This document shows positions 7,790 through 27,632 of a DNA stretch of 37,407 nt, piece by piece. Under the pieces are notes generated by a model that had not been told where the DNA came from, did no database searches, and worked only from the letters and a program-made list of their open reading frames with translations. Position 1 is the first letter of the stretch. Each line of letters opens with the position of its first letter. The stretch comes from Halomonas sp. GTDB taxonomy: Bacteria > Pseudomonadota > Gammaproteobacteria > Pseudomonadales > Halomonadaceae. Position numbers and translations under genes: made by a program. The stretch lies in contig JAIVHM010000144.1 in NCBI GenBank assembly GCA_020201095.1, forward strand, positions 1 through 37,407, given 5' to 3'.

Positions 7790-9166
7790 ATGACCGACTC
7801 ACCGCTGTTCTACCAGGCCGGCCCCGCCCTGCCGGAAGTCAGCCATGCCGATGGCGTCACCCTGTGGGATACCCAGGGCAAGGCCTACCTGGACGGCTGC
7901 TCCGGCGCCATCTCCTGCAATCTCGGCCACGGCCGGCAGGATATCCGCAATGCCATGCTGGCTCAGTTAGACCGTGTCGCCTTCACCTACCGCACCCAGT
8001 TCGAGAATACCCCTGCCGTGGCCCTGGGCCGCGCCCTGGTCGAGATGACCGGCGGCGCTTTAGAGAAGGTATTCTTCGTCTGCAGCGGCTCAGAGGCCGT
8101 CGAGTCGGCCCTCAAGCTGGCACGGCAGTACGTTGTCGCCATCGGCGAGCCGCAGCGGCGCCGCTTCGTTTCCCTGCGCCCCTCCTACCACGGCAGCACC
8201 CTGGGAGCGCTGGGCGTCACCGGCTATCACCCTCTGGAGGCGCCCTTCACCGAGCTCACCCACGCCTCGCTCAAGGTGGCGGGGCCCGACTTCTATCGCC
8301 ACCAGGATGCCGACGACGACGCCCATGTCGACCGGTTGCTGGCCGAGACTCGCTCGGCCATCGAGGCCGCCGGTCCCGAGTCGATCATCGCCTTCATACT
8401 GGAACCGGTGGGTGGCGCCAGCACCGGCGCCCGGCTGCTCGGTGAGCGCTACCTGAGGGGCATCCGCGCGCTGTGCAACGAATTCGGCTGCCTGCTGATC
8501 CTCGACGAGGTACTCACCGGGGTTGGCCGCACCGGCGCCTGGTTCGCCTGGCAACACTACGGCGTCATCCCCGACCTTTTGGTCACTGCCAAGGGGCTGG
8601 GCGCCGGCTATTACCCGGTGGGGGCACTGCTGGCCCGCGACGACATCGTCACCGAGGTGATGGCCAGCGGCGGCTTCCAGCACGGCCACACCTACGCCGG
8701 CAACCCGCTGGCCTGCGCCACCGGACTTGCCGTGATCGAGGCGATCCGCCGGGAGCGGCTGCTGGAGAACACCCGGGCGCGAGGCGACCAGCTTGAGACC
8801 GGCCTGCGGGCGCTGGCCAAGCGCTACCCCTGGGTCGGCCACGTGCGCGGCCTCGGCCTGCTGTGGGGCGTCGAACTGGTGGCCGACCCCGACACTCGTC
8901 GACCCTTTCCCGCCGAGCAGAACCGTTTTGCCCAGATCACCGCCCTGGCCAAGGAAGAGGGGCTGCTGATCTACCCCCGCCGCAGCCTGGACGGCGTGGC
9001 CGGCGACCACTTCCTGGTCACCCCGCCGCTGACCATCCGCGCCGCGGAGATGGAAACGCTGCTCGAACGGCTGGGTCGCGCCATGGCCCGCTTCGACCGG
9101 GCGCTGGCCGACGAGGACGGCGCCGCTGCCTTTACCTCCCGGGCCAAGGAGGCCCCGACATCATGA
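7790..9166 (+). CDS. Class III PLP-dependent aminotransferase
   Basis: A 458-residue class III (omega) aminotransferase. Visible features are the cofactor-phosphate segment CSGSEAVESALKLAR at 98-112, YHGSTLG at 133-139, the pyridine-binding Asp239 in LILDEVLTGVGRTG, and the Schiff-base Lys268 in VTAKGLGAGYYP. This class transfers amino groups that are usually not alpha to the carboxylate (beta-alanine, GABA, ornithine and diamines), typically to pyruvate or 2-oxoglutarate. It is the first gene of a rightward set and its stop overlaps the CoA-transferase alpha start (ATGA). Because CoA-transferase and thiolase genes follow, I infer that it makes a 3-oxo acid from a beta-amino acid. The substrate is unassigned, and automatic labels such as aspartate aminotransferase family would not be informative. 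Confidence 0.9.
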   Translation: MTDSPLFYQAGPALPEVSHADGVTLWDTQGKAYLDGCSGAISCNLGHGRQDIRNAMLAQLDRVAFTYRTQFENTPAVALGRALVEMTGGALEKVFFVCSGSEAVESALKLARQYVVAIGEPQRRRFVSLRPSYHGSTLGALGVTGYHPLEAPFTELTHASLKVAGPDFYRHQDADDDAHVDRLLAETRSAIEAAGPESIIAFILEPVGGASTGARLLGERYLRGIRALCNEFGCLLILDEVLTGVGRTGAWFAWQHYGVIPDLLVTAKGLGAGYYPVGALLARDDIVTEVMASGGFQHGHTYAGNPLACATGLAVIEAIRRERLLENTRARGDQLETGLRALAKRYPWVGHVRGLGLLWGVELVADPDTRRPFPAEQNRFAQITALAKEEGLLIYPRRSLDGVAGDHFLVTPPLTIRAAEMETLLERLGRAMARFDRALADEDGAAAFTSRAKEAPTS

Positions 9167-9864
9167 CGCTGCTCACCCAGAAGGTCCGCGATCTCGAGGC
9201 GGCGGTGGCCGCCATTCCACAGGGGGCGACGATCATGGTCGGCGGCTTCGGCTCGCCGGGCACCCCCTTCGCCCTGCTCGACGCCCTGCTGGCCTGCGGC
9301 CAGGGCGAGCTCACCCTGATCAAGAACGACGCCAACGAACCGGGTATCGGCATCGGCAGGCTGATCGAGGCCGGGCGCGTCCGACGGCTGATTACTTCGC
9401 ACCTGGGGCTCAACCGCACCGCCATCGAGGCGATGAATGCCGGGCGGCTCGAGGTGAGTTTTCATCCCCAGGGCCTGCTCGCCGAGAAGATTCGCTGCGC
9501 CGGCGCCGGTCACGGCGGCTTTCTCACCGACATCGGCCAGGGCACCGAGATCGCCGAGGACCGCCGAGAGATCGAGATCGACGGCCGCACCTGGGGCATC
9601 GAGCCGGCCCTGCATGCGGACGTCGCCCTGGTGCACGCCGAGCGGGCCGATCGCTACGGCAACCTGATCTATCGCGCCACCGCCAGCAACTTCAACCCGC
9701 TGATGGCCATGGCCGCCGATCAGGTGATCGCCCAGACCTACCGCCTCGATGCGCCCGGCGAGCTGCCCATCGACGCTATCCATACCCCCTGCGCCTTCGT
9801 CAGCCAGGTGGTGCGGGTCGACCGAGCCACCAGTGAACAGGGAGTTCGCCAGCATGAGCTCTGA
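9163..9864 (+). CDS. 3-oxoacid CoA-transferase, alpha subunit
   Basis: A 233-residue alpha subunit of a family I CoA-transferase (AtoD/ScoA/PcaI type), which moves CoA from a donor such as succinyl-CoA or acetyl-CoA to a carboxylic acid. The glycine-rich GGFGSPGTP motif is at 27-35. NLIYRATASNFNPLMAMAAD near residue 170 is the conserved segment that precedes the C-terminus. The frame extends far upstream inside the aminotransferase, but the ATG at 9163, overlapping the preceding stop, gives the family start. It overlaps the beta subunit gene by 11 bases, which suits subunits needed in equal amounts. Confidence 0.92.
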   Translation: MTLLTQKVRDLEAAVAAIPQGATIMVGGFGSPGTPFALLDALLACGQGELTLIKNDANEPGIGIGRLIEAGRVRRLITSHLGLNRTAIEAMNAGRLEVSFHPQGLLAEKIRCAGAGHGGFLTDIGQGTEIAEDRREIEIDGRTWGIEPALHADVALVHAERADRYGNLIYRATASNFNPLMAMAADQVIAQTYRLDAPGELPIDAIHTPCAFVSQVVRVDRATSEQGVRQHEL

Positions 9865-10507
9865 TACGCAGCGCATTCTGACCCGAGCCGCCCGGGAGGT
9901 GATCCCCGGCCAGATCGTCAATCTCGGCATCGGCCTGCCGACCCGACTCTTTCACTATCTGCCCGACGAAATGGAGGTGCTGGTGCACTCCGAAAACGGC
10001 GTGCTGGGCTGCCGGCCGCGCCGCGACGACGAGGCGCCGGACCACGATATGATCGATTCTGGCGGGGCCTACATCACCACTCGCCCCGGGGCCAGCGTCT
10101 TCGACAGCGCCACCTCCTTCGCCATGATCCGACGCAGCCGGGTCGACCTCACCTTCATGGGCGCCTTCGAGGTCGACGCCGCCGGCAACCTGGCCAACTG
10201 GAAGATACCCGGAAAGTTCTCACCCGGCATCGGCGGCGCCATGGAGCTGGCTCAGAAGGTCAAGCGGCTGGTGGTGCTCTGCTCCCACAATGACAAACAC
10301 GGCAACCCCAAGATCCTCCAGCGCTGTCGCTTGCCGCTCACCGCTAGCGGCTGCGTGTCGCGCATCATCACCGACAAGGCGGTGATGGACGTGACCCCCG
10401 AGGGTCTACGTGTGGTGGAGATCGCCGAGGGCCTCGACCCGGCCGATCTGCAGGCGGCGACGGAAGCCCCGCTAATCATCGACGAATCACGGCTGGGGAG
10501 ATTCTGA
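9854..10507 (+). CDS. 3-oxoacid CoA-transferase, beta subunit
   Basis: A 217-residue beta subunit of the same family I CoA-transferase. The catalytic glutamate, which forms the glutamyl-CoA thioester, is Glu47 in the HSENGVLG motif. QIVNLGIGLPT at 20-30 and GGAYITTRPGASVFDSA further on are also characteristic. Candidate activities include acetoacetate, 3-oxoadipate and similar 3-oxo acid transferases, which sequence alone does not separate. I infer a 3-oxo acid substrate because a thiolase follows two genes later. The stop overlaps the M20 gene start by one base (TGATG). Confidence 0.92.
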   Translation: MSSDTQRILTRAAREVIPGQIVNLGIGLPTRLFHYLPDEMEVLVHSENGVLGCRPRRDDEAPDHDMIDSGGAYITTRPGASVFDSATSFAMIRRSRVDLTFMGAFEVDAAGNLANWKIPGKFSPGIGGAMELAQKVKRLVVLCSHNDKHGNPKILQRCRLPLTASGCVSRIITDKAVMDVTPEGLRVVEIAEGLDPADLQAATEAPLIIDESRLGRF

Positions 10508-11790
10508 TGCTGGATGACGCCGAGAAACGCATCGTCGCCGCCTGCGACGCGCTTATGGACGACACCCTGGCGCTGACTTGTGACCTGGTGCGCGGCTACA
10601 GCGTGCTGGGCCAGGAGCATGGGGCGCTGGACACCATGGAGGCCTGGCTCAAACGGCTCGACCTGCCGGCGACCCGGGTGCCGCTGGACGCCCCGGGGTT
10701 TGCCGAGCACCCCCACCGAGTGCCCACCGAGTGGGACAGCGCCGGTCGCTACAACCTGGTCTCGCGGCTCAATCCCGATGCCAGCGGTCCGCACCTGGTG
10801 TTCAACGGCCATCTGGACGTGGTACCCGCTGAGCCCATCGACATGTGGACCCGTCCGCCCTGGGAGCCCTGGGAGCAGGACGGCTGGCTCTACGGCCGCG
10901 GTGCCGGCGACATGAAGGCCGGCATCGCCGCCATGGTCATGGCGGTGCAGGCGGTACGCCAGGCCGGCGTGACCATCGACTTCCCGCTAACCCTGCAGAC
11001 GGTAATCGAGGAGGAATGCACCGGCAACGGCGCTCTGGCCTGCCTGCATCAGGGCTATAGCGGCGACTTCGTGCTGATCCCTGAGCCCTTCGGCGCCCGA
11101 ATCTACAGCGGTCAGGTGGGTGTGCTGTGGTTCCGCATGCAGATCGAGGGCCTGCCGGCTCACGTGCTCGACACCGCCGCCGGCCGCAACGCTATCGAGA
11201 CCCTGCAGCTCTACCTGCCGGCGCTCAAGGCCCTGGAAGAGGAGATCAACGCCCTGCCCCGCCCGGCGCCCTACGTCGACCATCCCCATCCCTTCAATCT
11301 CAGCATCGGTCGGGTAGAGGGCGGCAACTGGGCCTCCAGCGTGCCGGCCCACGCCATCCTCGAGGGGCGCGTCGGCTTTCCGCCGGGGATGACGCCCGAC
11401 GACGCCATGGGGCGGGTGCGCGAAACCCTTGCCGCTCGCCATGCCGAGCTTGACGATGCTACCCCGGCGCCCCGGGTCAGCTTCCATGGCTTCCGCTCAG
11501 AAGGGCACCTGGTCGACCTCGACACCCCGGGCATCCGGCTACTCTCGGAGTGCCACGAAGCGCTGCTTGGCGAGCCGCCGGCCCACTACCTTTCCACCTG
11601 CACCACCGACCTGCGCGCCTTCCACGTTTCGGGCGAGATCAACGGCACCTGCTACGGCCCGGTCGCCCAGCGCATCCATGGCGTGGACGAGTGCGTCGAC
11701 ATCGACTCCATCCGCCACGTGCTGACCACCTACGCGCTGTTCATCCACCGCTGGGCGCGCCTGACCGACCCCAAGGAGCCGACTCCATGA
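10507..11790 (+). CDS. M20 family metallo-deacylase (ArgE/DapE type)
   Basis: A 427-residue M20 metallohydrolase of the ArgE/DapE/ACY1 group, which cleaves N-acyl groups or small peptides with a di-zinc centre. Metal ligands are visible at His102 and Asp104 (GHLDVVP), Asp135 (GRGAGDMKAG) and the catalytic/ligand glutamates at 168-170 (TVIEEECTGNG), with a C-terminal ligand in RIHGVDECVD. A dimerisation domain lies between about 210 and 325. It overlaps both neighbours (TGATG before, ATGA after). Its place inside a degradation operon points to removal of an acyl group from the imported compound before transamination, not to arginine or lysine synthesis. This role is inferred. Confidence 0.88.
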   Translation: MLDDAEKRIVAACDALMDDTLALTCDLVRGYSVLGQEHGALDTMEAWLKRLDLPATRVPLDAPGFAEHPHRVPTEWDSAGRYNLVSRLNPDASGPHLVFNGHLDVVPAEPIDMWTRPPWEPWEQDGWLYGRGAGDMKAGIAAMVMAVQAVRQAGVTIDFPLTLQTVIEEECTGNGALACLHQGYSGDFVLIPEPFGARIYSGQVGVLWFRMQIEGLPAHVLDTAAGRNAIETLQLYLPALKALEEEINALPRPAPYVDHPHPFNLSIGRVEGGNWASSVPAHAILEGRVGFPPGMTPDDAMGRVRETLAARHAELDDATPAPRVSFHGFRSEGHLVDLDTPGIRLLSECHEALLGEPPAHYLSTCTTDLRAFHVSGEINGTCYGPVAQRIHGVDECVDIDSIRHVLTTYALFIHRWARLTDPKEPTP

Positions 11791-12977
11791 GAAACGTCTA
11801 TCTCGCCGACTATGCCCGCAGCGCCTTCACCCGTGCGCATCCCCGCAAGCCAGAGCTGGATGGCTGGGCCGACACTCGCAGCGACGCTCTGCTGGCTGCC
11901 GTGATCGACGGCCTGCTCGTGCGAGGCGACCTCGACGGCGCCGCCGTGGAGGACCTCAGCGTCGGCTGCGCCCTGCCGGTCAAGGAGCAGTGGAGCTTCG
12001 GTGGACGCTACCCGCTGTGGCTAGCCGAGCGCCTGGGCGAGCGGGGCCGCGCCTGTGCCACCCGCCAAATCGACCAGCAGTGCGGCTCGGGGCTGGCGGC
12101 CCTACGCAGCACCGCCCGTGAGATACAGGCGGGTGCCATTGAGGTCGGCATCGCCGGCGGCGTCGAGAACATGACCCGGGTGCCCATGGGCCCGGCGCTA
12201 TTCAAGGAAGGCGTGCTGACCAGCCCGGCCGCGCTGCAGGAAGCCGACTGGCTGGAGCTTGGGGTGGCTCTGAACATGGGCGTGACCGCCGAGCGCCTGG
12301 CCGAAGCCGCGGGCATCGGGCGCGAGGCCATGGATGCCTTCGCCCTGGCCTCGCACCAACGAGCCGCCGCGGCCGATGCCGAGGGGCGCTTCAACGGCGA
12401 GCGCCTGATGCTGGCCAATGCTGCCGGCGAGCGCATCGCCCGGGATGCCAATGTCCGCGCCGATACCACTGCTGAGCGTCTGGCCGGCCTCGACCCGGTG
12501 TTCCTGGAAGGCGGCCGGGTGACCGCCGGCAACAGCTCTCCGCTCACCTCCGGGGCCGCCGCCGCCCTGCTGATGTCCGAGGAGGCCCTAACGCACCATG
12601 GCGCAACGCCCCTCGCTCGAGTGGTGGGCATTGCCGACTGCGGCGTCGCTCCTGAACAGATGGGCGCCGGGGCGGCGGCGGCCATTCAGCGCGTGCTGGA
12701 TCAGACTGGCCTGGGCGTCGCTGATATCGATTACTGGGAGATCAACGAGGCCTTCGCTGCGGTGCCGCTGCACGCCACGGGCGAGCTCGCGCTAGACCCC
12801 GAACGAGTCAACGTCTGGGGCGGTGCCCTGGCGCTGGGTCACCCTCTCGGCGCCACCGGGATCCGCCTTGCCGGAACGCTGGCGCGAATATTGCAGTTCG
12901 AAAAGAAGCGCTTCGGCTGTGCGGCCGCCTGCATCGGCGGCGGCCAGGGCATCGCCCTGCTGCTTGAACGAGCGTGA
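11787..12977 (+). CDS. Thiolase (acetyl-CoA C-acyltransferase family)
   Basis: A 396-residue thiolase with all expected catalytic positions: nucleophile Cys99 in DQQCGSGLAALRS, the NEAF motif at 320-323, His352 in GHPLGATG and Cys382 in CIGGGQG. Degradative thiolases split a 3-oxoacyl-CoA with free CoA to acetyl-CoA plus a shortened acyl-CoA. The start overlaps the M20 stop (ATGA). Next to a CoA-transferase, the natural reading is that the transferase makes a 3-oxoacyl-CoA and this enzyme cleaves it. Chain specificity cannot be read here. Confidence 0.93.
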   Translation: MRNVYLADYARSAFTRAHPRKPELDGWADTRSDALLAAVIDGLLVRGDLDGAAVEDLSVGCALPVKEQWSFGGRYPLWLAERLGERGRACATRQIDQQCGSGLAALRSTAREIQAGAIEVGIAGGVENMTRVPMGPALFKEGVLTSPAALQEADWLELGVALNMGVTAERLAEAAGIGREAMDAFALASHQRAAAADAEGRFNGERLMLANAAGERIARDANVRADTTAERLAGLDPVFLEGGRVTAGNSSPLTSGAAAALLMSEEALTHHGATPLARVVGIADCGVAPEQMGAGAAAAIQRVLDQTGLGVADIDYWEINEAFAAVPLHATGELALDPERVNVWGGALALGHPLGATGIRLAGTLARILQFEKKRFGCAAACIGGGQGIALLLERA

Positions 12978-13062
12978 CCCGCACAGGCAAAAACGTCCTG
13001 TGCCTCATTTCCATCAGCCATCATCAGGAGGTAACCGCTAGAACCCAGAACGTCACCCGACA

Positions 13063-13116
13063 CCACTGAACAAACCAACTCCACTGAACAAAACAAATCC
13101 ACTGAACAAAACAACT
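13063..13116. repeat. 18-bp tandem repeat in the binding-protein gene leader
   Basis: Three tandem 18-bp units (13063-13080, 13081-13098, 13099-13116), each beginning CCACTGAACAAA, sit in the 160-bp spacer between the thiolase and the solute-binding-protein gene. They end 21 bases before the latter's ATG. The array is C/A-rich on the plus strand and would give an unstructured leader. Confidence 0.8.
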
Positions 13117-13137
13117 CCACAACAAGCAGGCATCGAC

Positions 13138-13941
13138 ATGAAAAATCACAATACGTCTTTCCATCGTCCCCTTATCGGCGCCATGGCGCTGCTGGGCGCC
13201 ATTTCCCTGGTCAGCTTGCAGGTCCAGGCCCGGGATCTTCCCGAGATCCAGGATGACGTCTTCCAGGTCGTCAATTCCGGCGCCTACCCGCCCTTCAGCT
13301 ATGTGGACACGGGCGGCAACCTGATCGGTTTCGATGTGGATATTGCCGAAGCCCTGGCGGACAGAATGGGGGTCGAGGTGGACATCCAGACGTCGCCCTG
13401 GAACGGCATCGTTGCCGCCCTGGCCGGCGGTCGTTTCGACGCCTGCATCTGCAGCATGAGCGTCACGGAAGAGCGCGAGGAGGCCGTCGACTTCACCGAC
13501 CCCTACTACCGCTCGGGGCTCTCAATCTGGGTGCGGGACGAAACCGATGACATCAGCAGCATCGATGACTTCGAGGGCAAGCGAGTCGGCTCGACACTCG
13601 GCGAAACCGGCAATCAGTGGGCCACCGAGATGGCCGAGGGAAGGTGGCGCAACCAGACCTTCCAGGGCCTGCCCGACATGCTCAACGGGCTCACCAACGG
13701 GCGCGTCGACGTGATGATCGCCGATGATATTCCCGTCTATGTGGCCATCGGTGACGGGGATATCGCCATCAAGCAGATCGATGTCGGCGAGCTGCCCAGC
13801 TGGCCCGCCGCCATCGCCATCCAGAAGAATACGCCGCAGCTTAAGGCAGCGCTCAATACGGCGCTGACCGAGATCCGTGAGGACGGTACCTACCAGGCCA
13901 TCGTCGACAAATGGATCGGTGAAGGCGTCGAGTTCAATTAG
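13138..13941 (+). CDS. Polar amino acid ABC transporter, periplasmic binding protein
   Basis: A 267-residue family 3 solute-binding protein (bacterial SBP_bac_3 fold). The N-terminal signal peptide has a hydrophobic core around residues 13-28 and a probable cleavage after VQA, before RDLPEIQ. The mature protein has the family landmarks YPPFSYVDTGGNLIGFDVDIAEAL, WNGIVAALAGGRFDACICSMSVTEER (shown as two adjoining motifs WNGIVAAL and GRFDACICSMS), and FTDPYYRSG. The family binds amino acids and related amines in the periplasm. Two permeases and an ATPase follow directly. Ligand type cannot be fixed from these motifs. Confidence 0.93.
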   Translation: MKNHNTSFHRPLIGAMALLGAISLVSLQVQARDLPEIQDDVFQVVNSGAYPPFSYVDTGGNLIGFDVDIAEALADRMGVEVDIQTSPWNGIVAALAGGRFDACICSMSVTEEREEAVDFTDPYYRSGLSIWVRDETDDISSIDDFEGKRVGSTLGETGNQWATEMAEGRWRNQTFQGLPDMLNGLTNGRVDVMIADDIPVYVAIGDGDIAIKQIDVGELPSWPAAIAIQKNTPQLKAALNTALTEIREDGTYQAIVDKWIGEGVEFN

Positions 13942-13953
13942 AGGATCCCTCGA

Positions 13954-13975
13954 CAGCAGGGCGCGAGCCCTGCTG
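13954..13975 (+). terminator. Intercistronic hairpin after the binding-protein gene
   Basis: A perfect 9-bp stem, arms CAGCAGGGC and GCCCTGCTG around a GCGA tetraloop, begins 12 bases after the binding-protein stop and is followed by CTTTC. A strong hairpin with only a weak pyrimidine tail between a binding-protein gene and its permease genes is a known way to stabilise the upstream message or attenuate read-through. That gives more binding protein than permease. Confidence 0.65.
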
Positions 13976-14019
13976 CTTTCAAACCTTCCTGACAACTCGA
14001 CAACAGGATAGAAGGGATC

Positions 14020-14676
14020 ATGGACATCAATCTGATGATCGAGATCGCGCCGCTGCTGGTGAAGGCGGCCTGGGTGACCGTGGACATCTCCGCGCGCGCC
14101 CTGTTCTTCGGTTTCATTATCGCCTCGGCGCTGGTGGCGCTGCGCACCTCGCGCATCCCGCCCGTTCGCTGGCTGGCCCGCGCCTATATCAGCGTGGTGC
14201 GCGGCACGCCCTATTTCGTGCAGCTCCTGCTGGTCTTCTACGGTGGCCCCGCCATTGGCCTGCGCCTGGATCCCTTCACCTGCGGTGTTGTGGTCGGCGC
14301 CTTCAACATCGGCGCCTACATGAGCGAAGCCATGCGCGGCGCCATCGAGTCGGTGGACAGCGGCCAGAGCGAGGCGTCGCGCTCCTTGGGCTTCGGCCGC
14401 CTGGCCACCCTGCAACACATCATCCTGCCCCAGGCGGCGGCCCTGATGATCCGCTCGGTAGGAGTGCTGGGCATCATTCTGGTCAAGAACTCCTCGCTGG
14501 TATCGATCATCTCGGTGGTCGAGCTGACCTATCAGGCCCAGCGGCTGATCGGCTCCACTTACAAGCCCCTGGAAGTCTTCATGCTCAGCGCGCTGATGTA
14601 CATCGTCATCATCTATGCGGTCATGGGCATCGTGGAATTCCTCTATCGACGGGCCACTCGCTACACCTTCCTGTAA
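14020..14676 (+). CDS. Polar amino acid ABC transporter, permease 1
   Basis: A 218-residue inner-membrane permease of the HisM/HisQ/GlnP type. The ABC-contacting EAA loop reads EASRSLGFGRLATLQHIILP near residues 120-139. Hydrophobic segments flank it, and VVRGTPYFVQLLLVFYG before it is the usual family signature. An AAGGG ribosome binding site precedes the ATG. It forms a heterodimeric channel with the second permease encoded next. Confidence 0.93.
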   Translation: MDINLMIEIAPLLVKAAWVTVDISARALFFGFIIASALVALRTSRIPPVRWLARAYISVVRGTPYFVQLLLVFYGGPAIGLRLDPFTCGVVVGAFNIGAYMSEAMRGAIESVDSGQSEASRSLGFGRLATLQHIILPQAAALMIRSVGVLGIILVKNSSLVSIISVVELTYQAQRLIGSTYKPLEVFMLSALMYIVIIYAVMGIVEFLYRRATRYTFL

Positions 14677-14721
14677 CACATGCCGGGCACTTAGCCGGGC
14701 CACAACTACCAGGATAGCCGC

Positions 14722-15375
14722 ATGGAATTCGACTTCAGCCCCGTCATTGACTACTGGCCCACCCTGCTCCAGGGCGTCGGCGTCACCCTGCTGATCGGCC
14801 TGGCCGTCGCCGTGATGTCGATCATCGGCGGCCAGATCGTGGCGGTCATCACGCTGTATACCCGCAAGATGGTGAACTGGCCGCTGCGCTTCTTCATCTG
14901 GCTGTTCATGACCACACCGCTGCTGCTTCAGCTGTATTTCCTGTATTTCGGTATCGGCGAGTGGATACTCATACCGGCGATCGTGGTGGGGGTTCTAGGC
15001 CTGGGCTTTCACTACATGGCCTATAACGCCGATATCTTCATCGCCACCATCAAGTCGGTCTCGAGCGGCCAATATGAAGCATCGCGCTCACTGGGTTTCG
15101 GCCACCTCCGCACGCTCCTGTATATCATTCTCCCCCAGGCCTTCTATCGCGCCCTGCCCCAGCTGAGCAACAACATGATCATCATGGTCAAGGACATTTC
15201 GGTGCTGTCGGCCATCGGCATCGGCGAGATGGTCTATGCCTCGCAGTACGCCATCAGCGTGACCTTCCGGCCCTTCGAGTTCTACATCACCATCGCCGTC
15301 ATCTACTACCTGATCAATCTGATGATGGAAGCCGGCCAGACGTGGATCGAACGTCGCGCCGCCTATCGCAGCTAA
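14722..15375 (+). CDS. Polar amino acid ABC transporter, permease 2
   Basis: A 217-residue permease related to the preceding one. The EAA loop EASRSLGFGHLRTLLYIILP is near residues 117-136 and is preceded by FMTTPLLLQLYFLYFG, the equivalent of the RGTP segment, here with TTPLLLQ. An AGGA box lies upstream of the ATG and only 45 bases separate it from permease 1. It is the second half of the membrane channel of the importer. Confidence 0.93.
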   Translation: MEFDFSPVIDYWPTLLQGVGVTLLIGLAVAVMSIIGGQIVAVITLYTRKMVNWPLRFFIWLFMTTPLLLQLYFLYFGIGEWILIPAIVVGVLGLGFHYMAYNADIFIATIKSVSSGQYEASRSLGFGHLRTLLYIILPQAFYRALPQLSNNMIIMVKDISVLSAIGIGEMVYASQYAISVTFRPFEFYITIAVIYYLINLMMEAGQTWIERRAAYRS

Positions 15376-15387
15376 CGAGGACGTCAT

Positions 15388-16167
15388 ATGACACAAACAC
15401 CAGAGACCCCGATGGTCGAGCTCAAGGGAATCAAGAAACGCTTCGGCGACCTGGAAGTGCTCAAGGGCATCGACCTCAGCGTAGATCGCGGCAAGATCAT
15501 CTCCATCATCGGCCCGTCAGGCTCGGGAAAAAGCACCCTGCTGCGCTCCGTCAACAATCTGGAAGTGATCGACGAGGGCACCATCCTGCTGGATGGCGTT
15601 CAGGTCAATCGGCCCGACCTGAAGGGCCTGGCCTACGAGAAACACATCAACCATATCCGCCAAAACATGGGCATGGTGTTCCAGCACTTCAATCTGTTTC
15701 CTCATCTTTCGACACTGGAAAACGTGACGCTGGCGCCCAGGAAGCTCAAGGGGATGAGCGCCAGGGAAGCTCAGGAGCTGGGCATGGAGCTGCTCGAGCG
15801 CGTAGGCCTGGCAGACAAGGCGCAGGTCTACCCGAGCGCGCTCTCCGGTGGCCAGAAACAGCGGGTGGCCATCGCCCGGGCGCTGGCCATGCGTCCCAAG
15901 GTCATGCTCTTCGACGAGGCCACCTCGGCGCTCGACCCCGAACTGGTCGAGGAGGTAAACCTTGTCGTGAAGGGTCTGGCCGAGGAGCATATGACCATGC
16001 TGATCGTCACCCATGAGATGACCTTTGCTCGCGACGTTTCCGACTGGACGATGTTCATGGATGGTGGCGTGGTGGTCGAGGCCAACACCCCCGAACACCT
16101 GTTCAGCCATCCCGACCAGGAACGCACCCAACACTTCCTGCGCAAGCACCTGGGGGCCCAGGCCTGA
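15388..16167 (+). CDS. Polar amino acid ABC transporter, ATPase
   Basis: A 259-residue ABC ATPase of the GlnQ/HisP group. Walker A GPSGSGKST, Q-loop MVFQHFNLFPHLS, signature LSGGQKQR, Walker B VMLFDEATSALD and the switch histidine in VTHEM are all present in order. A GAGG box sits 7 nt before the ATG. It is the last gene of the cluster and powers the importer. No clear intrinsic terminator follows. Confidence 0.95.
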   Translation: MTQTPETPMVELKGIKKRFGDLEVLKGIDLSVDRGKIISIIGPSGSGKSTLLRSVNNLEVIDEGTILLDGVQVNRPDLKGLAYEKHINHIRQNMGMVFQHFNLFPHLSTLENVTLAPRKLKGMSAREAQELGMELLERVGLADKAQVYPSALSGGQKQRVAIARALAMRPKVMLFDEATSALDPELVEEVNLVVKGLAEEHMTMLIVTHEMTFARDVSDWTMFMDGGVVVEANTPEHLFSHPDQERTQHFLRKHLGAQA

Positions 16168-16431: not shown

Positions 16432-16541
16432 GGCGGCCCCGACAGCCACATCCCGGCACACGCGACCACCACTACCGTTGCTCCCTTCCGGGCCTGGCGG
16501 GGTTTGCGGCTTAGCATTGCGGGAGGACCGACAGGGCCACC
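16432..16541 (-). ncRNA. ffs: 4.5S RNA, signal recognition particle RNA
   Basis: Read on the minus strand, this 110-nt segment contains the conserved SRP tip, with CAGGCCCGGAAGGGAGCA matching the CAGGUCCGGAAGGAAGCA of E. coli 4.5S RNA. The stem segments CCTCCCGCAATGCTA and GTGTGCCGGGATGT also match. The 5' GGTGGCCC pairs with the 3' GGGCCGCC, which sets the ends. It binds Ffh to target membrane proteins. It lies alone between the ABC cluster and the ATP-grasp gene, on the opposite strand from both. An A-rich run on the plus strand at about 16384-16392 gives a U-tract after it and may help termination. Confidence 0.95.
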
Positions 16542-16736
16542 ATAAATCGTCGTCTTTGACCTAGACGTCGATGACTCGGCAGTTGCGACGTTGGCGATCA
16601 ACGTCTTGCTGAGTGCGGGCGCACTATATCAATGCCGGAGACAGTGGGCAAGGGGCGAATCCATCAGCGCATCGGGATGAACCCGTCCCATCGTTGCTGT
16701 ATCGTTTGCTTCGTTTTTTTCCGCACCAAGGCCTGT

Positions 16737-16795: not shown

Positions 16796-18019
16796 ATGAC
16801 AAAGGATCCGAACAAGGGTTACATCGCTCTGCTTGGCTGGAGTCTTAACGCCATCGAAGCCGCCGAAAACTTCGACCGTCGCTACGTGGTGGTCGCGCCC
16901 GACTGGGCCGAGGAGTACTGCCAGAAGCACGACATCCCCTATGTGTCCTGGAACTTCGAGCGTTTGAACGACCGCTCCCTGGAGATCGCCGAGACCCTCA
17001 AGGAACTGGGCGTCGACGTAGCGATACCGATGTTCGAGGAGACCGTGGAGTGGGCAGGCGCCATCAACTCGGTGCTGCTCGACAATCCTCGCCTCTACGG
17101 GCAGTCGCTGCTGCTGCGCGACAAGGCGCTGATGAAGCGCCGCGCTCAGCTGGGCGGTATTCGCGTGGGCATCTTCGAGGAGGCGCATGACAAGGAGGAC
17201 GTCGTTCGTTTTCTCAAGCGGGTCAACCAGACCCTGCTCAAGCTCGACGGCGACCCCAACGACCCCATCCACCTCAAGGCCTTCGACAAGGCTGGCTGTC
17301 TGGGCCACAGGATGATCCGCACCCCGGACGAGGTCGACTCCATCCCGGACGAGGAATTCCCGGTGCTGATGGAATCCCACCTGGACGGCTGGGAATTCGC
17401 CGTGGAAGCGTGGATCCACAATGGCAAGATCGCCTTTCTCAATATCTCCGAGTACGTGACCCTGGGCTACTCGGTGTTTGTGCCGGCATCGCCTGAGCTC
17501 GAATATTATCGCCCGCAGATTGCCGCGCAGATCGAGAAACTGATCAAGACGTTCGACATCGAATTTGGCCTGATCCATCCAGAGTACTTCGTCACCAGCG
17601 ACGGCGAGATGTACTTTGGCGAAGTGGCTTACCGTCCGCCTGGGTTCAAGGTGTTCGAACTGCTCGAGCGGGTTTACGGCTTCAACGCCTACCAAGCCTC
17701 CATGCTGGTGTTCGATCCCAAGACCACTGCCGAAGAGGTCTCGGCGTTCTTCCCCGAAGAGGTGGTGGACGCCGACGGCTTTGCCGGTTGCTTCGGGGTC
17801 TATCCGCGCCGCCGCGTGGTCAACAAACTGGAGATTCCGGAAGAGGTCGAGGACGATCCCTACTTCGAGTCCCACGAGCTCACCGCACCGATGGAAGAGA
17901 CCGTCACCAAGCGAACCGCCTTCGGTACCCACTGGGGCCTGATATACTTCAAGGGCGACGAATCTGTACGCATGAAGGAATTGCTCAAGCATATGGAAGA
18001 GCTTGATTTTTATATCTGA
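16796..18019 (+). CDS. ATP-grasp domain protein (carboxylate-amine ligase type)
   Basis: A 407-residue ATP-grasp enzyme. An N-terminal Rossmann-like domain (residues 1 to about 100) is followed by the ATP-grasp fold. RDKALMKRRAQLGGIRVG at 108-125 is the usual entry helix, and ATP contacts include Lys161 and Glu193 in LMESHLDGWEFAVEAW. The magnesium and substrate region is GLIHPEYFV (258-266) with Glu276 and Arg280 in GEVAYRPPG. Such enzymes join a carboxylate to an amine or thiol through an acyl-phosphate. The frame is open 61 codons upstream, but GGGAG before the ATG at 16796 supports this start. It lies 45 bases before a papain-like gene, which suggests one operon. The substrates are unknown. 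Confidence 0.87.
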   Translation: MTKDPNKGYIALLGWSLNAIEAAENFDRRYVVVAPDWAEEYCQKHDIPYVSWNFERLNDRSLEIAETLKELGVDVAIPMFEETVEWAGAINSVLLDNPRLYGQSLLLRDKALMKRRAQLGGIRVGIFEEAHDKEDVVRFLKRVNQTLLKLDGDPNDPIHLKAFDKAGCLGHRMIRTPDEVDSIPDEEFPVLMESHLDGWEFAVEAWIHNGKIAFLNISEYVTLGYSVFVPASPELEYYRPQIAAQIEKLIKTFDIEFGLIHPEYFVTSDGEMYFGEVAYRPPGFKVFELLERVYGFNAYQASMLVFDPKTTAEEVSAFFPEEVVDADGFAGCFGVYPRRRVVNKLEIPEEVEDDPYFESHELTAPMEETVTKRTAFGTHWGLIYFKGDESVRMKELLKHMEELDFYI

Positions 18020-18064
18020 TACAGGCGTCATGGCGATATGACATCCTGACGACAAGGAGTCGGC

Positions 18065-20101
18065 GTGACTACGCACCGACACACGCAAGACATGAGTGCA
18101 ACGCCTGCGGCCGACGAAAAGCTCGATGGCCTTTGCCAAAAACTGGACCAGGCAGTCAGTCTGCTGGCTAACGCCCCGAAGTTTGCAAGACCCGGCAAGC
18201 TGCCAAGGGTGCTCGACACCGCCCGCCGGGTGCTACTCCTGGAAGGCGGTGCCGCCGCCATCGAGGCCCGCGCCCAGGCCTATGAAAAGGCTGGGGTCTT
18301 TGCAGGCTCCGACTGGCAGACTCCCCAATACCTAGTGCCCTCGCTGACGACCCACTCCCTCAAGAGCGCCGATCCCAATCTGGTCGCGATTGAGGCGCTG
18401 AGCGAGCTGCGCCTGCTGGCCGTGGCAAAGGGGGAGTATCTGCATGACCAGATCTCGGCCGAACAGGCCCACCACTACCTGACCCAGGTAATGGCGATCA
18501 ATCTATGGCTGTTGTTTGGCGCACCCAGCGAGGCTGAGCGCGAGACTCAAGGCCGCCTGGCTCAGATTCCCCGCCATCTGTTCCAGCATCTGGCCGAGCG
18601 CATCGGCTACGAGCACATCATCGACCGGCTGATCGACGAGATCTGGCGCATCCTGCATCAGCGCCCCATCCAGGTTGAACCGGTCAAGACAATGATCACC
18701 CAGATCGCCATCTGCCAGGCCAATCCAGAGATCGATCTGGGTATCAGCGGCCAGGGCGCCGACCGCCTGGTCAGCTCGCTGTTCGGCCCTACCCGGGCCT
18801 GCCGCGAGGATCCCGGCATCGAGATCTATCGTGAACGGCTTTCCAGCATGGACGGCGCCGCGCTCCAGGGAGAGGCCACCGGCTTCGCCCGGGCCATGCA
18901 CGACACCGGGCTGGTCTCGGCCTATCATCCGGTGCTGCTGCGACACCTGTTGGATCACAGCGATCACCTGGTGGCCGAAGCGCTGGGACTCTCGGCCACC
19001 GGTCGCGATTGCCTGCTCTGCTACCGCGAGCTGGTCTCGGCGCTGATCCGCGGCGGCGTGCATCCATCCACGCCCCAAGCCGTCTTTGGCCTGGCACTGA
19101 TGCTGGAGCGCGGCATTCTCTACCAGCCGCCGGTAGCCCCGGCAATGTGGCGCCAGATGAGCCTGACGCTCACAGAATGGTCCCAGGCACGGCTCAACAC
19201 CGCCTTCGGTGAGGCGATCTCGCCCAGGGCAAGGCTGCTCGAGGGGGTGCTGTGCATGCTAGGTCAGCCGCTGGGCGTGGGTCAGGGCAACAACCCCACC
19301 TGCCAGTCGGCTCGGGCCCTCTCCATGTGGGCCTACAACGACCCCGACTACCTGCTGCAGATGGTGGCCTGGGCAGCCCGCGACGACGAGATCATCATGC
19401 ACTTCGAGGGTCAGCCGATCTCCTCGATGGAGAGCAGCGGCGGCGTGGCCAAGAACCTGCCCATGGACCTCGACCCGGTATCGCTGATCGTGGTGCCCCA
19501 CCTGGATCGTATCTATGCCGAGATGGGCCGACGTTGCAACGGTCGCGAGGGTGACCCTCACCGCTGGGTCAACCCCGAGTTCCACGGATGGTGGTCCGGC
19601 CGGGGCTTTCGCATCAACGTCGACGTGGCCACGGGCAAGCTTCACGAGCTGGACACCTTCCTGCGCCACTTCTACGCCAGCTACCACCCCTACTACAACG
19701 GCAATCAGCCGCTGATTCACCCTCAGCCGGCGGGCATCGCGGTGACCGACAGCGCCGCTCGCTTCATCGGCTGGCACGCCATCACCGTGCTGCGCGTATC
19801 GCTGGATCCTTCCGATGTGATGCGGGTTTATTTCTACAACCCCAACAACGACAGCGGCCAGGACTGGGGCGACGATATCAAGGTCAGCACCGCCGACCAC
19901 GGCGAGCGCGCTGGCGAGGCCTCACTGCCCTTCGATCAGTTCGCCTCACGTCTTTACATCTTCCATTACGACCCGCTGGAGCCCGGCGAGTTGGCCCAGG
20001 TCACTCAGGAGGAGCTCGATGTGGTGATCGGCCACATCCACCGCAGCTGGGGAGCGGACAGAATCCCGCCGGCCGACCTGCAGGCCGATGAAGGTCTCTA
20101 G
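18065..20101 (+). CDS. Large protein with candidate papain-like C-terminal domain
   Basis: I do not recognise the whole 678-residue protein as a named family. It starts at a GTG with AAGGAG five bases before; an ATG nine codons later is an alternative. No signal peptide or membrane segment is seen. Residues 1 to about 395 look helical and soluble. The C-terminal part shows a papain-like set: Gln407 and Cys413 in GQGNNPTCQSARALSMWA with the six-residue Gln-Cys spacing of papain, His571 in IGWHAITVLRV, and Asn592 in VYFYNPNNDSGQDWG. This is my inference from motifs. Together with the preceding ATP-grasp gene it recalls bifunctional ligase/amidase systems such as glutathionylspermidine synthetase/amidase. 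It could be a hydrolase, transamidase or inactive homologue. Confidence 0.7.
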   Translation: MTTHRHTQDMSATPAADEKLDGLCQKLDQAVSLLANAPKFARPGKLPRVLDTARRVLLLEGGAAAIEARAQAYEKAGVFAGSDWQTPQYLVPSLTTHSLKSADPNLVAIEALSELRLLAVAKGEYLHDQISAEQAHHYLTQVMAINLWLLFGAPSEAERETQGRLAQIPRHLFQHLAERIGYEHIIDRLIDEIWRILHQRPIQVEPVKTMITQIAICQANPEIDLGISGQGADRLVSSLFGPTRACREDPGIEIYRERLSSMDGAALQGEATGFARAMHDTGLVSAYHPVLLRHLLDHSDHLVAEALGLSATGRDCLLCYRELVSALIRGGVHPSTPQAVFGLALMLERGILYQPPVAPAMWRQMSLTLTEWSQARLNTAFGEAISPRARLLEGVLCMLGQPLGVGQGNNPTCQSARALSMWAYNDPDYLLQMVAWAARDDEIIMHFEGQPISSMESSGGVAKNLPMDLDPVSLIVVPHLDRIYAEMGRRCNGREGDPHRWVNPEFHGWWSGRGFRINVDVATGKLHELDTFLRHFYASYHPYYNGNQPLIHPQPAGIAVTDSAARFIGWHAITVLRVSLDPSDVMRVYFYNPNNDSGQDWGDDIKVSTADHGERAGEASLPFDQFASRLYIFHYDPLEPGELAQVTQEELDVVIGHIHRSWGADRIPPADLQADEGL

Positions 20102-26751: not shown

Positions 26752-27252
26752 CTACCCCGTCTCCTCCCCCAGCGCCGAACCCGGTAGGGGCGGCACCGTC
26801 GCCAGCCACTCCGGCACCTGGCCGGCATCGTCGTCCTCTTCGCCCCAAACGCCATTCTCGACCATCAGGACTGCCAAGGACTTCCCCCGGGCCGCCCAGT
26901 GATGGCAGGCATCGCTAAGCAGCTCCAGAAAAATGGCCATGGCCACGCCGTCGGCCGGGGCTGCGGGCACCAGGATCACCCGCGCCTTGCCCGCCTTCCA
27001 GCCGAGTTCCGTCAGACAGTCCCAGGCCGCATCCCAGTTGCGGCCGAAGTGGGCGGGAAAGGCCAGGCTCACCGCCAGGGCATCCAGCAGCGTTTCACGA
27101 TTCCAGCGCCAGGGCGCGGGCAGGCAGTGCCAGCAAAGACCATCGGATTCTCCGAGACCCTGGGCCTGCGATAACGCCACACGATAGATACCGCCATGGA
27201 CGGGGTTGGCCAAAAAAAGCGACAGCGCCTCTCCGGAGGATCTCAAGGTCAT
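26752..27252 (-). CDS. Barstar family ribonuclease inhibitor
   Basis: A 166-residue barstar-like protein, longer than the 89-residue Bacillus amyloliquefaciens barstar because of N- and C-terminal extensions. The core is recognisable as LAVSLAFPAHFGRNWDAAWDCL near 58-80, matching the tyrosine/asparagine/tryptophan helix region of barstar that plugs the RNase active site. No signal peptide is present, so it stays in the cytoplasm. The start overlaps the stop of the ribonuclease gene by four bases (ATGA), and the nuclease is made first. Protection of the producer against its own RNase is the known role of the family. Confidence 0.87.
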   Translation of the reverse strand: MTLRSSGEALSLFLANPVHGGIYRVALSQAQGLGESDGLCWHCLPAPWRWNRETLLDALAVSLAFPAHFGRNWDAAWDCLTELGWKAGKARVILVPAAPADGVAMAIFLELLSDACHHWAARGKSLAVLMVENGVWGEEDDDAGQVPEWLATVPPLPGSALGEETG

Positions 27253-27632
27253 CGACGATCCTCCAGCACCCGGAATGAGGCGTAGTGATCATCGGTATAG
27301 TAGAAGATTTCCGGCGGGTTTCCGCCGGTGACGATGCGACGAGCGCCTCGGTGGGACAGCCCCGGGGTCTCGACGGTGTACTCGCGGTAGTAGCCCCGGG
27401 GGCGCTGGGGCAACAGCCGCTCGCGATTATGAAAGGTCGTGGCGTCCTGAGCATGCGGAAAGGGCCCACCCCGCTCGATCAACCGCAGCGTTTCATCAAC
27501 CTGGATCTGGCCCGAAGGGCGCTGTTCAACGGGGGCAGGCTCCCCGGACCCGGATCCGAACCATGACCCCAGCTCCTCGAACTGGGAGAAGCCTAGCAGG
27601 GCCACTAAAGCGATCAGCAGTATCTTCTTCAT
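27249..27632 (-). CDS. Secreted ribonuclease, barnase/RNase Sa family
   Basis: A 127-residue N1/T1-type guanyl-preferring ribonuclease. Residues 1 to about 17 form a signal peptide or membrane anchor, and a short Gly/Ser/Pro-rich spacer follows. The catalytic domain from about 50 to 124 aligns by eye with RNase Sa: FHNRE, then YYREYTV with the general base Glu84, Arg95 and Arg99 in SHRGARRIVTG, and His116 in DDHYASF. All key catalytic residues are therefore present and the enzyme should be active. It cleaves RNA outside the cytoplasm. The overlapping barstar gene supports the identification. Confidence 0.92.
   Translation of the reverse strand: MKKILLIALVALLGFSQFEELGSWFGSGSGEPAPVEQRPSGQIQVDETLRLIERGGPFPHAQDATTFHNRERLLPQRPRGYYREYTVETPGLSHRGARRIVTGGNPPEIFYYTDDHYASFRVLEDRR

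Follow-up and report, generated by a model that had tools for sequence, protein, structure and literature searches.

The synthetase part of the glutathionylspermidine and trypanothione synthetase/amidases is an ATP-grasp ligase, and in the butirosin pathway the ATP-grasp protein BtrJ occurs together with BtrH, a papain-fold acyltransferase. Clusters composed of a circularly permuted ATP-grasp, Alpha-E and a transglutaminase-like peptidase, attributed to Iyer et al. in 2009, are said to bring a ligase together with a cysteine peptidase whose fold is related. Among cysteine peptidases, Asn as the third catalytic residue and a Q-x5-C arrangement are typical of the C1 and C2 families, and the calpain motif is of the same kind. 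In this work, we analyzed a 37,407-nt contig of Halomonas sp. (GenBank assembly GCA_020201095.1, contig JAIVHM010000144.1), the whole length of which is referred to as the window, and focused on two genes arranged in tandem on the same strand with a gap of 45 bp. The first, A, encodes an ATP-grasp ligase, and the second, P, a 678-residue orphan protein with a papain-type signature. That the two encode a ligase and a cysteine amide enzyme working together is well supported by the genome evidence presented below. Beyond this, the pair may constitute a self-contained cytoplasmic two-enzyme amide-bond module in which A would ligate and P would hydrolyze or transfer, with a small substrate in common, a reading in which our confidence is evenly balanced.

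Comparison with Described Ligase–Amidase Systems

A first-pass annotation of the window had interpreted the pair as a candidate undescribed ligase/amidase system that may make and break, or build and edit, an amide bond, with glutathionylspermidine and trypanothione synthetase/amidase as precedents and with the N-terminal region of P as a putative substrate-binding part. Both open reading frames (ORFs) are present as it described them, and no description of the pair was found in the literature searched, which consisted of open-access papers. Its observation is confirmed and its interpretation partly supported: the joint action of both proteins is well supported across genomes, and the make-and-break component stands only as an analogy. 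Like the synthetase/amidases, A and P would couple an ATP-grasp ligase to a cysteine amidase of papain fold, the fold being predicted in the case of P. A strict form of this scheme, in which P reverses A and sets the level of a conjugate, would be a special case of the module proposed above, and we consider it unlikely. An ATP-grasp ligase and a papain-type gene are indeed adjacent, with A located elsewhere in the genome where they are not, but hmmscan of A, of P and of the relatives aligned with them lists neither the glutathionylspermidine synthetase profile of Pfam nor that of CHAP. Moreover, unlike the described enzymes, A and P are separate genes, P carries an additional N-terminal region of 383 residues, several P occur per A in some genomes, and P exhibits the Asn third residue and Q-x5-C arrangement of C1/C2 peptidases. 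Glutathionylspermidine synthetase/amidase is thus best regarded as an analogue in logic, to which no relationship was detected; its amidase belongs to the CHAP/C51 group according to PMC10318531.

The butirosin enzymes likewise bring an ATP-grasp protein and a papain-fold enzyme into a single pathway, the papain-like fold of BtrH being mentioned in PMC2922099 and that of P being predicted. Unlike butirosin, A and P are accompanied by no recurring carrier protein or biosynthetic gene and showed no Pfam match. Of the components of the Alpha-E/transglutaminase-like clusters, none appeared among the Pfam matches listed for the two proteins, and the genes that recur across lineages are A and P alone.

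Catalytic Signature and Conservation of P

The alignment of P was built from 125 places, of which 22 identical sequences were merged to give 103 non-identical sequences including that of the window, none of them under the limit of 600 residues. Gln407, Cys413, His571 and Asn592, which are found at the positions that the first-pass annotation had given and likened to papain, correspond to a putative Cys-His-Asn triad with a Gln six residues ahead of the Cys, and homologues retain them without exception (103/103, at identities down to 43%), an outcome in favor of that annotation. In the same set, 117 positions reached 99% identity, the invariant histidines were 499, 541, 571 and 634, and Cys413 was the sole invariant residue among the eight cysteines of P. 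The local contexts (GQGNNPTC, GWHA and YFYNPNNDSGQDWG) resemble those of C1/C2 peptidases: like papain and calpain, P displays QG-x4-C, H-A ahead of a predicted strand, and N followed by G-x-x-W-G-like residues, a likeness that was judged by eye against C1 sequences. The catalytic part of P was 54–95% identical to that of the window in 24 diverse relatives (alignment A4).

A strict joint signature, defined as QG-x4-C, then H[AVGIL], then N[PSTA], matched 14 of the 441 non-redundant proteins of the examined loci, namely five P members and nine others, all nine of which overlapped a Pfam Peptidase_C1 match. The signature recovered 7 of 11 aligned C1 sequences used as a positive control and occurred in 23 of 8820 shuffled proteins; a loose form matched 53 of the 441. 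Because the pattern was devised after P had been seen, this test counts as supporting evidence only.

Considering the motif, its invariance and its spacing, a papain fold is likely for P, which we predict to be a clan CA (papain-like) enzyme. Two results weigh against this assignment, which the first-pass annotation had also made: neither hmmscan nor hmmsearch linked P to a described peptidase at a level above noise, and the hhalign score of P against a Peptidase_C1 profile was 15.8, with 40 shuffled C1 profiles reaching up to 22.6. Control scores were near the real one (14.7 for the N-terminal part of P, 14.3 for A, and 14.5 for the reversed C1 profile), and the test was underpowered because the number of effective sequences of the P catalytic part was 1.9. 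The best local match covered the His-to-Asn region and fell on the right His. The C1 profile was derived from 11 of 20 matches after exclusion of nine partial or split ones, and C1 was the family compared profile to profile. Profile scans gave no match of PF00112 (Peptidase_C1) to P, and the calpain family Peptidase_C2 was matched in 0 of 151 genomes and in 0 of 14 control genomes. Thus, unlike the C1 enzymes it resembles, P has no significant match to them by hidden Markov model or by profile–profile comparison. More broadly, P and its relatives gave no match above cut-off in Pfam or NCBIfam and no significant match in the PDB, P gave none in PADLOC or PHROG, and a profile of the catalytic part revealed no intermediate family in 252 genomes, the next match beneath the true members having an expectation value (E) of 0.03.

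Alternatively, P might not be papain-fold at all; the Q/C/H/N pattern would then be coincidental, and P would have a structural role alongside A or bind to it. Although the lack of a significant profile link to any peptidase speaks for this alternative, we hold it to be improbable given the invariance of the four residues, the position of Cys413 as the only invariant cysteine, and the fact that, outside P, the strict signature falls only over Peptidase_C1 matches among the 441 proteins.

Two observations lend weak support to the helical nature of the N-terminal region of P proposed in the first-pass annotation. With E allowed up to 10, the P profile retrieved from the PDB solely three helical proteins of designed origin, at E values between 0.026 and 0.31, and a crude count of helix propensity gave 47% in the N-terminal region versus 24% in the catalytic part. 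A hydropathy scan showed no strongly hydrophobic stretch, from which we infer a probable cytoplasmic site for the module.

Relationship of A to ATP-Grasp Ligases

Pfam ATP-grasp_4 matched all 30 members of alignment A3, with a best E of 7.3e-7; the A of the window scored 23.0 bits, under the curated cut-off of 27, and the best NCBIfam match of A was PRK07206, a weak one at 23.4 bits against a cut-off of 302. When the 30-sequence profile was compared with 177,635 PDB sequences, the top matches were 3vot (BL00235) and 4wd3, with an E of 0.0014 and an alignment spanning the metal site, and a single-sequence search retrieved 4wd3 with an E of 4e-4. Glu263, Glu276 and Arg280, whose role in the metal-site region was assigned through the alignment to 3vot, were invariant in 30 of 30 sequences, as were Lys110 and Lys161, which we take to be probable nucleotide-binding lysines. 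Like the L-amino acid ligase BL00235, A carries the metal-site motif H-x-E followed by E-V-x-x-R; unlike the L-amino acid ligases, it matches them only at the modest profile E given above and co-occurs with P. Judged by these matches, A is a real but weak member of the ATP-grasp superfamily, and its predicted activity is that of a remote relative of the L-amino acid (dipeptide) ligases. The ratio of nonsynonymous to synonymous substitution rates against three relatives was 0.04–0.07 for A and 0.08–0.14 for P, and both genes look to be under purifying selection.

The resemblance of the A profile to L-amino acid ligases also bears on the possibility that P is a protease that supplies peptides, as has been suggested for peptidase-linked ATP-grasps that lack precursors; P would cleave a protein or peptide of the cell, and A would go on to modify the fragment. 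According to PMC8939145, branches 7 and 8 of the ATP-grasp enzymes pair with peptidases and have no detectable precursor, and no precursor-like small ORF (18–120 aa, within 1.5 kb) was found near the A–P pair either, which likewise sets it apart from graspetides, a group of ribosomally synthesized and post-translationally modified peptides. Small ORFs common across lineages were confined to the start of type-2 A, where they lie on the opposite strand, and to the interior of larger ORFs in loci L114 and L125. Nevertheless, with a ligase of this type and with no exporter recurring beside the pair across lineages, we regard the supply of peptides by P as very improbable.

Pairing of A and P across Genomes

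The named loci comprise 80 of at least 585 P relatives, and in 70 of these 80 a full or near full-length A is situated directly upstream of P on the same strand. Of the 106 P places that were scanned, 93 had an A no more than 2.5 kb away and 91 had it within 400 bp; in this set, one genome contributes its two places a second time (through L027 and L191), and five of the paired places (L188, L191, L192, L193 and L195) had been chosen for A. Four arrangements were observed, namely 81 tandem A-P, 7 tandem P-A, 4 divergent and 1 convergent, and 13 places had no A within 2.5 kb. The window's own genome bears a second pair, in the order P-A (L110:1210-3021), whose P is without roughly residues 286–335 of the window P and whose A is full-length.

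Gene pairing beyond the species, on which the first-pass annotation had made its proposal depend, was found in 30 distinct positive genomes with 12 family labels, one of them (G286) outside the class; in another genome, G658, P is split in two pieces. In three partly overlapping samples, the genomes with P were the genomes with a close A (8 of 274, 11 of 398 and 14 of 19), counts that reflect common ancestry and not independent events. A close A was defined in the 398-genome sample by an E of at most 1e-50, and the ATP-grasps not counted as such were five distant ones in the 274-genome sample (E 1e-25 to 7e-4) and one in the 19-genome sample (29% identity, E 1.7e-4). In the 65 of 80 named loci where A, P and the neighboring TlyA gene are all present, A had a median identity to the window of 90.7%, P of 81.8% and TlyA of 73.9%.

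Several points weigh against reading these data as a module of A and P. Besides the shared ancestry behind the counts, seven places (L127, L128, L188, L191, L192, L193 and L195) were chosen for holding A, and the 106 do not include L234–L241, a further eight P copies that lack A. Furthermore, P outnumbers A in G435, with four P and two A, and in G674, G675 and G677, with three P and one A each, an excess for which plain one-to-one making and breaking does not account.

Loss, Exchange and Multiplication of the Partners

Types 1 and 2 of A and P were assigned from a FastTree tree. The midpoint-rooted trees part A and P into broadly the same deep groups, with differences concerning L126 and the order of the groups. 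An adjacent intact A was missing at 10 of the 80 named loci, whose genomes all carry an intact type-2 A at another site. With the eight further solitary copies counted in, the 14 genomes in which some P lacks an adjacent A (G674–G683, G171, G399, G334 and G435) all carry an intact A at another place (14/14). C-terminal remnants of A were present less than 100 bp upstream of type-1 P in G678, G679, G680, G682 and G665, each of which has an intact type-2 A; none was listed for G681. Each of the five genomes G678 to G682 contains a single type-1 P and a single intact type-2 A, and the types therefore look exchangeable. In four of these five (loci L189, L190, L194 and L197), the intact type-2 A has no P within the examined stretch. 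Since type-2 A seems to replace type-1 A, A would make a common product, and P would need no physical match to one particular A.

P is multiplied in some genomes. G334 has five full-length P and a fragment, and scoring of four of its six candidates gave two A; G399 has three of each. The P of the more distant groups share 43–58% identity with that of the window, while A stays at 74–94%. The extra copies suggest that P confers specificity. We tentatively put forward, as a possibility well short of an even chance, that a conserved ligase makes a common small product which up to five diverged papain-type P per genome transfer or release in different ways. The same pattern can be accommodated by a two-step synthesis, in which P would be a papain-fold acyl- or aminoacyl-transferase acting before or after A on one metabolite, with nothing degraded. 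No genome in the three samples had a close A alone or P alone, which is what a requirement for both steps would predict, and P is multiplied and diverged with a steady A, as if one ligase product supplied several transferases; on the other hand, a carrier protein or other biosynthetic gene never recurs beside the pair across lineages and the Pfam lists show no link to BtrH, which makes this two-step route somewhat unlikely in our assessment.

Predicted Function of the Pair

The mutual dependence of A and P, their adjacency maintained through rearrangement, and the absence of a recurring third gene or a precursor ORF together lead to the proposal of a self-contained two-enzyme module, and we infer that both proteins act on a shared substrate. 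In the proposed mechanism, A would activate a carboxylate with ATP to form an acyl phosphate and would couple it to an amine in the manner of L-amino acid ligases. Cys413 of P would then accept the acyl group of the product of A, presumably as an acyl-enzyme, and P would pass it on either to water or to a different amine. P would thereby serve as an amidase or a transamidase, its substrate being the small peptide or conjugate that A makes. The action of P may equally be hydrolysis, as in make and break, or transfer, as in two-step synthesis.

Although none of the families in Pfam, NCBIfam, PADLOC and PHROG matches P and the ATP-grasp character of A is remote, both are strongly conserved, and a pair kept through four arrangements with mixing of partners between types offers a firm starting point for tracing an undescribed metabolite or modification. 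Should one ligase product indeed be used by up to five diverged P per genome, Gammaproteobacteria and some relatives would possess a cytoplasmic amide-bond system that represents a novel kind of metabolism of low-molecular-weight conjugates, or else of tagging of small molecules. The pair is present in culturable halophiles, in which gene deletion and metabolomics can address it directly.

Locus Layout and Genomic Surroundings

The features of the window are compiled in Table 1. A longer, GTG-started frame for A begins at 16613, and among the matches listed, the closest named relatives by P belong to Halomonas. The signal recognition particle (SRP) RNA gene stands between the pair and the upstream transporter of the amino-acid type, and a gene encoding a TlyA-family methyltransferase is located downstream of P.

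Table 1. Coordinates of the A–P pair and of further features in the window.
Feature	Position	Strand	Remarks
A: ATP-grasp ligase, 407 aa	16796..18019	+	translated from ATG at 16796
AAGGAG, probable ribosome-binding site of P	18054..18059	+	read from sequence
P: 678-aa orphan protein, papain-type signature Gln407/Cys413/His571/Asn592	18065..20101	+	GTG start
P N-terminal 383 residues, probably mostly helical, conservation lower than remainder	18065..19213	+	
P catalytic part, residues 384-642	19214..19990	+	alignment A4
Small bacterial SRP RNA gene (RF00169)	16437-16533	-	71.4 bits; upstream of A, opposite strand
Class-III aminotransferase, coenzyme A (CoA) transferase subunit, M20 peptidase, thiolase, amino-acid type ATP-binding cassette (ABC) transporter, in series	7790-16167	+	
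Barnase-family ribonuclease (PF00545), then Barstar-domain ORF (PF01337)	26752-27632	-	toxin–inhibitor type pair

No third gene recurs beside A and P across lineages, and neither does a carrier protein, an exporter or another biosynthetic gene. The upstream ABC transporter, the thiolase and CoA transferase, TlyA and MscS were considered as partners and rejected, as neighbors vary between lineages (ORFs were called mechanically). In three related genomes, the gene adjoining A encodes malate:quinone oxidoreductase, which was not retained as a partner, and the genes surrounding solitary P copies (ABC permeases, a desaturase, a pseudouridine synthase and an alpha/beta hydrolase) differ by place. 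A role in anti-phage defense was set aside with zero PADLOC families for A and P, as was viral spread, since none of 80 pattern matches in viral contigs encodes a relative. Plasmid records yielded one match in 72,556, on a 1.8-Mb Halomonas replicon.

At two places (L236:8320-10841 and L237:7347-9868), a solitary P is located beside a GCS2-like ligase and an AstE/AspA-like hydrolase, another ligase–hydrolase couple, which among the examined loci was confined to these two genomes of one genus. Finally, the row of genes that precedes the SRP RNA gene in the window looks like a cluster for amino acid uptake and degradation.

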